Shown here one piece after another: positions 17,292 through 19,690 of a DNA stretch of 34,500 nt. This DNA comes from Candidatus Methanofastidiosum methylothiophilum. Lineage in GTDB: Archaea > Methanobacteriota_B > Thermococci > Methanofastidiosales > Methanofastidiosaceae. Position 1 is the first letter of the stretch; every line of letters starts with the position of its first letter. The stretch spans positions 1 to 34,500 of the forward strand of contig LNJC01000014.1 in assembly GCA_001587575.1 (NCBI GenBank), in the 5' to 3' direction. The notes beneath the pieces are model-generated. The model made no database searches. It had not been told where the DNA came from and worked only from the letters and a program-made list of their open reading frames with translations. A program made the translations under genes and the position numbers.

Positions 17292-18041
17292 ATGTATAAA
17301 GTTGTTCTCTTGAGACATGGTGAAAGCACTTGGAATAAGGAGAATAGATTTACTGGTTGGACAGATGTAGACCTTTCTGAAAAGGGGATTATAGAAGCCA
17401 AAAAATCGGGTAAAGTATTACTAGAATCAGGATATGTGTTTGACATAGCATTTACTTCTGTTCTCAAAAGGGCAATAAGAACCTTGTGGCTAACTTTAGA
17501 TGAGATGGATCTAATGTGGATACCAGTAATAAATTCATGGAGATTAAATGAGAGGCATTATGGTGCTCTTCAGGGACTCAATAAATCAGAAATGGCCAAA
17601 AAATATGGAGAAACCCAAGTGTTAGTCTGGAGAAGAAGTTATGATATAAGACCTCCTGCCCTAGAAAAAAATGATAAAAGGTATCCAGGTTTTGACCCAC
17701 GTTACAAAGACTTGCCTAAAGATCAGATTCCACAAACTGAATGTCTTAAGGATACAGTTGAAAGATTTTTACCTTATTGGCATGAAACAATAGCCCCAAC
17801 AATAAAGAGCGGAAAGAAAGTTCTAATTGTGGCACATGGAAACAGTCTTAGGGCGCTTGTAAAATATCTTGATAATGTTTCTGAAGCAGAAATAGTAAGT
17901 CTGAACATACCAACAGGCATCCCCCTAGTCTATGAATTAGATAAGGACTTGAAACCTATAAGGCATTATTATTTAGGAGATGCTAAAGAAATTGAAAATG
18001 CAATTAAATCAGTAGCAAACCAGGGGAAAGCAAAGAAATAA
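17292..18041 (+). CDS. gpmA: 2,3-bisphosphoglycerate-dependent phosphoglycerate mutase
   Basis: 249 residues, the classical bacterial/eukaryotic dPGM length. The phosphohistidine motif [18 protein letters not shown] is at the N-terminus, [14 protein letters not shown] is the conserved substrate loop, RRSYDIRPP follows, and [14 protein letters not shown] carries the second catalytic His. It interconverts 3- and 2-phosphoglycerate in glycolysis and gluconeogenesis. Most archaea use the unrelated cofactor-independent enzyme, so this gene probably came from bacteria, though its base composition now matches the neighbourhood. A GTGAT-like site lies just before the ATG. The trp regulatory region begins right after its stop. 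Confidence 0.97.
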
Positions 18042-18052
18042 ATAATACAAAG

Positions 18053-18062
18053 CTTTATAAAG
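18053..18062 (+). promoter_or_regulatory. TATA box of the trp leader-trpB2 transcript
   Basis: CTTTATAAAG is a near-consensus archaeal TATA box starting 11 bases after the gpmA stop. Transcription should start ~25-27 bases downstream, at about 18083, only a few bases before the leader peptide ATG at 18090. The leader ORF is therefore the first thing transcribed. Confidence 0.65.
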
Positions 18063-18089
18063 AGATTCATGATTAAATTTTTTGGTACT

Positions 18090-18167
18090 ATGAGCTTAAA
18101 GCCATCCAATACAACCAAAGTAGTCACAAAAGACTCTTTTCTTAAATTTTGGTGGTGGCGATACTAA
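18090..18167 (+). CDS. trpL: Candidate Trp leader peptide (25 residues, three consecutive Trp codons)
   Basis: A short ORF begins ATG AGC TTA, encodes MSLKPSNTTK... and ends ...SFLKFWWWRY before TAA. The three TGG codons (18150-18158) are three codons from the stop. Trp is the rarest codon class here, so a run of three at this spot is not expected by chance. The end resembles bacterial TrpL peptides (E. coli ends ...KGWWRTS). It lies between a TATA box and trpB2, immediately upstream of a hairpin and a terminator-like structure, as in trp attenuators. The ribosome site is weak, but the transcript is nearly leaderless, which archaeal ribosomes accept. Function in tryptophan sensing is inferred. 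Confidence 0.75.
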   Translation: MSLKPSNTTKVVTKDSFLKFWWWRY

Positions 18168-18194
18168 GCGACCTACTTTTAGGTTTTTCGCTTA
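18165..18194 (+). promoter_or_regulatory. Hairpin overlapping the leader stop codon
   Basis: TAAGCGA (18165-18171) pairs perfectly with TCGCTTA (18188-18194), and CCTA (18172-18175) with TAGG (18180-18183); a four-base T bulge and a four-base loop remain. The first strand begins with the leader's own stop codon, so a ribosome finishing the leader would melt it. Confidence 0.7.
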
Positions 18195-18218
18195 CTCATA
18201 GGAATTTTAGTGTAAATT

Positions 18219-18254
18219 AGACGTCTAGAGATTTTTAGAGGTCTTAGTTTTTTT
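18219..18254 (+). terminator. Terminator-like hairpin with U tract before trpB2 (putative attenuator)
   Basis: AGAC-G-TCTA (18219-18227) pairs with TAGA-G-GTCT (18236-18244) around an 8-base loop, with one G-G mismatch. TAG and seven T follow (18248-18254). It ends 47 bases before the trpB2 ATG, so a terminator here would stop the transcript before the gene. The 3' arm can instead pair with 18163-18174 in the leader. Confidence 0.6.
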
Positions 18255-18301
18255 AGTTAGAATATTTTAGATTTTTAATAAACTATAAGGGAGGATAAAA
18301 T

Positions 18302-19669
18302 ATGGAAAGAACCAAAATATTTTTGGACGAAAACCAAATGCCAAAAAAATGGTATAACATACAGGCAGACCTGCCAAAGGCCCTGCCGCCAGTATATAGC
18401 CCTAGAACCTTAAAACAGGCTACATTGGAAGAGCTTTCAGTACTTTTTCCAATGGAAATTCTAAAACAGGAAGTATCTCAAGAAAGATGGATTGATATTC
18501 CACAGGAAATACGTGATATTTACGCAGTATGGAGACCTTCTCCACTTTACAGAGCTCTAAGATTGGAAAAGGCCCTAAAAACACCTGCAAAAATTTACTT
18601 CAAATGGGAAGGAATTTCTCCTGCAGGTAGCCACAAACCAAACACAGCAGTGCCACAGGCATACTATAACATGAAAGAAGGTACACAAACAATAACAACT
18701 GAAACCGGTGCAGGTCAGTGGGGGTCTGCATTAAGTTACGCAACGAGTCTATTTGACATAACATGCAGAGTTTACATGGTAAGGGTAAGTTACGAGCAGA
18801 AACCTTACAGAAGAAATCTAATTCATTTGTGGGGGGCAGAAGTGTTCCCAAGTCCGAGCAATAAGACAAACGCAGGAAGATCTATTCTAAAAGATAATCC
18901 AGAGCACCCTGGAAGTCTTGGAATTGCCATATCCGAAGCTGTAGAAGATGCGGCAACACATGAAGACACGAAATACTCTCTTGGAAGTGTTTTAAACCAC
19001 GTTTGTATGCACCAGACAGTAATAGGTCTTGAATCTAAGGAACAATTGAAGATGGAAGAAAAATACCCAGACATAGTAATTGGTTGTGTTGGCGGTGGTT
19101 CTAACTTTGCAGGTATCTCATTCCCATTCTTACATGACAAGCTTAAAGGCAATAAGAAAGATCTAAGAGTTATAGCTGTTGAGCCACATTCATGTCCAAC
19201 ACTAACAAAAGGCCTTTATGCTTTCGATTATGGTGACTCAACAAAGTTAGGTCCTATTGCAAAGATGTTTACTTTGGGCCATGACTTTATTCCACCAGGC
19301 ATACATGCTGGAGGATTAAGGTACCACGGAGCCTCGCCTATAGTAAGTTCACTAAAAGACCAAAACATTATCGAAGCTCAAGCATACCACCAAACAGAAG
19401 TATTTGAAGCTGCAATGCTATTTGCACAGACTGAAGGTCATGTTCCGGCACCAGAAACTGCTCACGCGATTAAATCTGCAATAGAAGAAGCAAAAAAGTG
19501 CAAACAAACTGGGGAAGAAAAGGTAATTCTATTCAATGCAAGTGGTCATGGACACTTTGATCTTAAATCCTACGAACTTTTTATTCATGGAAAACTAACA
19601 GACTATGAATACCCTGCAGACCTTGTAAAGCAGTCTCTTAAAAAACTTCCAAAGATTAAGGAGGATTAA
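18302..19669 (+). CDS. trpB2: TrpB2-type tryptophan synthase beta chain
   Basis: 455 residues, the long TrpB2 form, which joins indole and serine to make tryptophan and usually acts without TrpA. The PLP lysine is Lys112 in [14 protein letters not shown]. The catalytic Glu is in [12 protein letters not shown] near residue 134, and the phosphate-binding loop is [11 protein letters not shown] near 264-271. A strong GGGAGG ribosome site lies 7-8 bases upstream. No trpA or other trp biosynthetic gene is in the window, so it may salvage indole. Expression is probably controlled by the upstream leader and attenuator-like structures. A palindromic terminator overlaps its stop codon. Confidence 0.96.
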
Positions 19670-19690
19670 TCCTCCTATTTTTTTTATTTT
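19659..19690 (+). terminator. Palindromic terminator overlapping the trpB2 stop codon
   Basis: AGGAGGATTAATCCTCCT (19659-19676) is a perfect 18-base palindrome containing the TAA stop of trpB2, followed by ATTTTTTTTATTTT. The 6-bp GC-rich stem with a T tract is the strongest terminator-like element in the window. It leaves the next gene, 22 bases away, without an obvious promoter. Confidence 0.8.

Follow-up and report, generated by a model that had tools for sequence, protein, structure and literature searches.

Predicted translation-sensing tryptophan leaders upstream of trpB2 in archaea

Upstream of trpB2, Candidatus Methanofastidiosum carries a short open reading frame (ORF) with three consecutive Trp codons near its stop codon, embedded in a conserved RNA fold. 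The window, which is the whole stretch of 34,500 nucleotides analysed here, comes from this uncultured methane-producing archaeon, whose genome is 1.56 Mb; NCBI places the genus in Archaea, Methanofastidiosales. We read the leader as a translation-sensing tryptophan leader that controls trpB2, and give this reading a probability of roughly 0.6. Translation of the WWW codons would probably sense Trp and control trpB2 via early termination. Leaders of another build were found upstream of trpB2 in Thermococcaceae, where their arrangement predicts a +1 frameshift relay under Trp starvation. On the sequence comparisons made here, it appears a little more probable than its opposite that archaea use the translation of leader ORFs to sense Trp, and that they do so in at least two forms at trpB2: a Methanofastidiosum WWW attenuator, which would be the first in archaea and work without a classical antiterminator, and a Thermococcaceae chain of starvation frameshifts.

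Table 1. Features of the Methanofastidiosum trpB2 region, in coordinates of the window.
Feature	Position	Strand	Basis or remark
TATA box TTTATAAA	18054-18061	+	sequence
P1 5' strand CTATGAG, contains leader start codon	18088-18094	+	pairs with 18195-18201
Leader ORF MSLKPSNTTKVVTKDSFLKFWWWRY, 25 codons + TAA	18090-18167	+	conserved in 9 congeners
Arm A, leader ORF sequence against Trp-codon strand	18101-18159	+	folds, pair counts
Three consecutive Trp codons, TGG TGG TGG	18150-18158	+	invariant, 9/9
P2, stop-codon hairpin, 18165-18175 with 18180-18183 + 18188-18194	18165-18194	+	congener folds
P1 3' strand CTCATAG	18195-18201	+	pairs with 18088-18094
P3 hairpin, then T7 (18248-18254); candidate archaeal termination region	18214-18250	+	fold, congeners
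Shine-Dalgarno GGGAGG of trpB2	18289-18294	+	sequence; GGAGGATAA conserved
trpB2, TrpB-like PLP enzyme, TIGR01415	18302-19669	+	668.7 bits against a cut-off of 518.85
Terminator-like AGGAGGATTAATCCTCCT + T8, trpB2 3' end	19659-19687	+	hairpin; present in congeners

The leader ORF and its target in Methanofastidiosum

The strongly conserved leader block starts at GGTACTATGAG, ~27 nt 3' of the TATA box in the congener alignment. Judging from the positions of the TATA box and this block, the transcript would start at about 18084 with a 5' UTR of ~6 nt, and the leader mRNA is probably almost leaderless. The ATG, the frame, the WWWRY sequence and the stop codon were kept in all nine Methanofastidiosum genomes with intact sequence; a tenth could not be scored for the leader, as its trpB2 is cut by a contig end. 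The earlier note had recognised a trp leader with a Trp-codon ORF at this place, and this was borne out across the genus, where the ORF precedes trpB2 together with the stop-codon hairpin, the downstream hairpin and a U-run.

The WWW run sits two codons before the stop, and short ATG ORFs containing WWW are expected by chance at 0.03 per 34.5-kb window. The only indel within the ORF among the congeners is one of 3 nt. An A is deleted from TAAG in one genome (G004), by which the stop TAA becomes TAG, and a T is lost on the opposite side of P2. The distance from the leader stop to trpB2 varies from 121 to 140 nt and is free modulo 3, so leader translation would end at the stop. Frame 0 contained no stops and had a mean BLOSUM score of +0.27, compared with -0.86 and -1.25 in the other two frames. 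It is because the WWW run is invariant and in frame before a Trp gene, and the frame-0 changes are conservative, that we propose Trp as the signal.

The peptide does not account for all of the conservation. Changes were distributed 11/8/8 over the codon positions, with no third-position bias, and part of the conservation is therefore that of RNA rather than peptide. CGA, a rare codon that makes up 2 of the 147 Arg codons in the window, was invariant in all nine leaders, which together with the lack of third-position bias argues for selection on the leader RNA too. The leader core was 57-99% identical between species. Since trpB2 fourfold sites are themselves only ~50-80% identical, core identity reflects selection in most species pairs.

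The exact leader pattern was found in six Methanofastidiosum/-ia MAGs and in no other among ~85,000 species. A covariance model of the leader matched nine of ten Methanofastidiosum genomes with one copy each; its lone match outside the genus, in G010, scored 19 bits, lay in an unrelated gene region and was rejected as spurious. Matches with two mismatches within the genus fell inside coding genes and were rejected as further leader copies, and the pattern TGGTGG-N-stop was unusable as a query, being far too frequent across the genus. The leader ORFs of G004 (L032) and G005 (L007) are almost identical, yet the G004 trpB2 is closest to those of the window and G002; this suggests that the leader has been exchanged between lineages.

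Downstream of trpB2 lie a weak NAD-kinase-like gene and a tryptophanyl-tRNA synthetase gene. As trpB2 ends in a hairpin followed by eight T, the leader may control trpB2 alone. This end is kept in congeners: hairpin plus T-run ends do occur in Methanofastidiosum. Only one of ten Methanofastidiosum genomes (G001, among G000-G009) had trpA above the cut-off. Most members of the genus probably use TrpB2 to make Trp from salvaged indole, and with no trpA above the cut-off in nine of ten genomes a tie of trpB2 to Trp supply makes sense.

No TGTACA box, which we take to be the TrpY operator, occurred within 320 nt upstream of trpB2 in any of the nine congeners. In all five relatives from the same order (L010-L014), TGTACA boxes adjoin the trpB2 TATA box, ~45-85 nt before trpB2, and the leader is absent. 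Regulation of trpB2 thus appears to have shifted from a promoter regulator to a leader, or in the opposite direction.

Leader RNA fold and alternative explanations

The stop-codon hairpin (P2) and the downstream hairpin (P3) described in the earlier note are real: z-scores were -3.66 for the leader (18084-18203) and -2.94 for the P3 region (18204-18260). P1 closes the leader domain, with 98% of cells paired and six of its seven pairs invariant in the congener alignment. In arm A, GCCAUC (18101-18106) and ACCAAAGU (18114-18121) pair with the Trp-codon strand at 18146-18159, around an inner stem of 18122-18125/18132-18135; the pairing of GCCAUCC with UGGUGGUGGC averaged -10.2 kcal/mol across congeners. 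P2 formed in all nine free leaders, less certainly in G004 and G005, and its stem in G004 is short by one base per side. The pairings of P1, arm A and P2 rank among the best conserved in the leader, and 92.7% of cells in the domain were paired, compared with 37-46% when the partners were slid. Two pairs in the core showed double changes, a limited support by covariation given that the core hardly varies.

Termination in archaea depends on U-tracts and FttA, not on Rho. P3 was present in all nine congeners at -6.5 to -11.8 kcal/mol, with several of its pairs changed, and the U-run 3' of it is short or interrupted in several of them. An Rfam scan of the window at the gathering threshold, and of 18000-18400 up to E = 5, gave no match to a leader family, T-box included.

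A closed P1 flanking a conserved core, a compact fold and nucleotide conservation beyond coding need, such as the invariant CGA, would be expected of a riboswitch-like three-way junction of P1, arm A and P2 that binds Trp or a protein, with the WWW frame incidental. We consider this unlikely: an in-frame ATG near the proposed transcript start, three Trp codons, a close stop and a Trp gene are improbable as a chance combination, the stop survives a deletion, frame-0 changes are conservative and Rfam gave no matching family.

Still less probable is a TnaC-like arrest peptide, in which Trp would cause nascent WWWRY to hold the ribosome at the stop codon. No invariant stretch of the peptide is longer than WWWRY-stop, and the N-terminal part is variable, but RNA pairing of the same nucleotides in arm A and P2 explains that invariance. 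The peptide has no recognised arrest motif, and its 24-25 residues would barely span the ribosome exit tunnel.

A shade more doubtful again is a +1 frameshift under Trp starvation, at UUU-U before the hungry UGG, that would carry ribosomes past the stop into P2, P1 and P3. TTT precedes the first TGG in seven of nine species, the +1 frame skips the TAA in all nine, and the sister family Thermococcaceae shows a very strong relay signature (below). Two of the nine species have GTT instead, however, and the places where the +1 frame ends are unrelated. Past the stop, distances differ modulo 3 between species and none of the frames runs through to trpB2. No relay of the Thermococcaceae type was found in Methanofastidiosum.

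The earlier note had also proposed antitermination under Trp shortage: with a ribosome stalled on the first Trp codon, ACTAAG (18163-18168) plus ACCT (18171-18174) would pair with AGGT (18239-18242) plus CTTAGT (18243-18248). All ten pairs are present in the window and in a near relative (G002), but the duplex was no better than shuffles, at -9.7 kcal/mol compared with -8.0 ± 1.7 for dinucleotide-preserving shuffles of the 3' partner only, 16.5% of which were equally good. Compared with the best fold, forcing the pairing cost 15.1 kcal/mol in the free leader and 11.2-12.1 kcal/mol when a ribosome covered Trp codon 1 or 2. Its mean pair probability was 2e-7 without a ribosome footprint and 1e-8 to 3e-5 with one, and P3 still formed under every ribosome mask. 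Relatives keep both hairpins but not the long-range complementarity, which is complete in only two of nine species, the window and G002, and missing or partial in the other seven: G003 retains a 5-bp part (-7.9 kcal/mol), G004 pairs in a different register (-7.2 kcal/mol), and the best pairings in G001, G009, G006, G007 and G005 reached only -2.3 to -3.8 kcal/mol. Being in substance neither competitive in folding nor conserved in relatives, this antiterminator is rejected as very improbable.

A systematic search for another conserved alternative pairing, from the leader ORF region to P3 or the trpB2 ribosome site, returned only generic pyrimidine/Shine-Dalgarno complementarity. Masking any one of the Trp codons or the stop with a ribosome, or letting ribosomes queue to the start, did not disrupt P3 before the termination point, and stalled-ribosome masks gave no consistent change in access to the trpB2 ribosome site. 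This insensitivity of P3 and the ribosome site to ribosome placement means that a classical base-pair switch is not supported. When queued ribosomes kept P1 open, the P1 3' strand, with CTCATAGG and the following U residues, could pair with the 5' arm of P3; this alternative was seen as a shape in several species but was weak, at -0.1 to -6.2 kcal/mol and mostly within the range of shuffles.

For the translation-sensing leader, we propose the following sequence of events. When Trp is plentiful, the ribosome would complete the leader ORF and depart, the domain of P1, arm A and P2 would close and occlude the leader start codon, and most transcripts would stop within P3 and the U-rich region. When Trp-tRNA is short, the ribosome would pause on the WWW codons and keep the domain open; more ribosomes would load behind the paused one, and more transcripts would extend into trpB2. 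Two candidate relays may connect the paused ribosome to P3. A ribosome queue reaching to the start codon could free CTCATAGG for weak pairing with the P3 5' arm. Alternatively, the termination factor FttA/aCPSF1 could gain less access. FttA binds U-rich nascent RNA, and competition between this factor and ribosome coupling has been proposed (PMC11616081, PMC8116511), which makes FttA a second possible link from the waiting ribosome to P3.

Leaders upstream of trpB2 in Thermococcaceae

A second type of trpB2 leader was found in 60 genomes of heat-loving relatives in the same GTDB class as Methanofastidiosum (loci L016-L031, L062-L079 and L085-L118). We infer that these relatives are Thermococcaceae from the TrpB1 of one of them (G022), which is close to the 1v8z chain, presumably Pyrococcus furiosus TrpB1. 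Each leader consists of two to three successive units of the form [DEG]-[CR]-F-W-x(n)-stop with TTT before TGG, lying, for example, ~60-220 nt before trpB2 in L016. The first ORF reads M-x(0-3)-R-S-D/E-C/R-F-W-x(1-2)-stop in most genomes. TTT preceded the Trp codon in 89 of 89 units of the first set (31 genomes). Trp codons in that set were spaced by 55, 58, 64 or 67 nt and then usually by 25, 28, 31 or 37 nt, all of which equal 1 modulo 3.

In the first set, 52 of 56 links had the open +1 frame of a unit continuing as frame 0 of the unit after it, and the other frames gave 0 of 56. The four exceptional links belong to genomes in which the earlier +1 frame runs past the following unit yet still arrives at ATGA. 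In all 31 genomes the last unit's +1 frame reached the trpB2 start, mostly ending at the TGA of ATGA. Genomes fetched afterwards served as a held-out set, of which 29 of 34 were scorable by the same script: of 53 links, 50 were in +1 and none in either of the other frames, and the last unit was at the trpB2 start codon in 25 of 29. Both sets together gave 102 of 109 links in +1 and 0 of 109 in other frames, with the trpB2 start reached in 56 of 60 genomes. These counts are not independent events, as the genomes are related, and the stronger support therefore comes from the many different distances that share the same remainder. Many last units lack an in-frame start codon and would be readable only by a frameshift.

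This arrangement predicts a +1 frameshift relay driven by Trp starvation. While UGG awaits Trp-tRNA, tRNA-Phe would slip +1 on UUU-U, up to three times. The near stop codon would guard each unit, so that only starved ribosomes get through. The ribosome would then terminate and reinitiate at the trpB2 start codon; archaeal ribosomes are known to reinitiate where stop and start codons overlap (PMC6728339).

Rfam returned no leader family on four of the Thermococcaceae loci, and other paired TTTTGG sites across the family were mostly background. A conserved hairpin-like element, TTATTCCCTC-N-TTTTGGGA, lies ~30-60 nt before trpB2 in Thermococcaceae (e.g. L016, L031), after the last frameshift unit and ahead of the ribosome site of trpB2.

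Comparison with known systems

A 2021 paper stated that no attenuation or antitermination mechanism was known in archaea (PMC8448881). Our literature search, which covered mostly freely available papers, found no such archaeal mechanism described since, and no description of the Thermococcaceae leader type in the papers searched. Beyond TrpY, archaeal Trp control is poorly understood, according to a study of Thermococcus kodakarensis (PMC6737238), and a major review states that no hungry-codon frameshift is known to give a starvation-specific product (PMC5009743). A conserved archaeal Trp-codon leader would make translational attenuation testable in the third domain, and the frameshift relay is predicted in a culturable, genetically tractable family.

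Like the attenuators of the E. coli trpL type, the Methanofastidiosum leader has, before the matching gene, a short ORF in which codons for the end product follow one another, a stop-codon hairpin, and then a hairpin plus a U-run that varies between congeners. It differs in its archaeal host, in a near-leaderless start codon that is paired inside the leader, and in its target, which is trpB2 rather than a full trp operon. A conserved antiterminator was searched for and not found in Methanofastidiosum, and we therefore do not class the leader as a trpL-type attenuator, though the sensing part would be alike.

TrpY of Methanothermobacter and Tar of T. kodakarensis also control Trp synthesis genes in archaea (PMC6737238), but they are DNA-binding proteins that act at the promoter, and the Methanofastidiosum trpB2 promoter is without a TGTACA box. 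T-box leaders are likewise RNA leaders before Trp genes that read the state of Trp-tRNA; in Methanofastidiosum the codons lie in what appears to be a translated ORF, and there was no T-box match in Rfam. TnaC is also a short leader peptide connected with Trp, and the region of its stop codon is important, but it senses free Trp through the nascent chain and controls breakdown, whereas the Methanofastidiosum leader has a Trp codon run and precedes a synthesis gene. The leaders of Thermococcaceae share with that of Methanofastidiosum the trpB2 target, short ORFs and Trp codons near a stop; chained +1 frames ending at the trpB2 start are a property of the Thermococcaceae leaders only.
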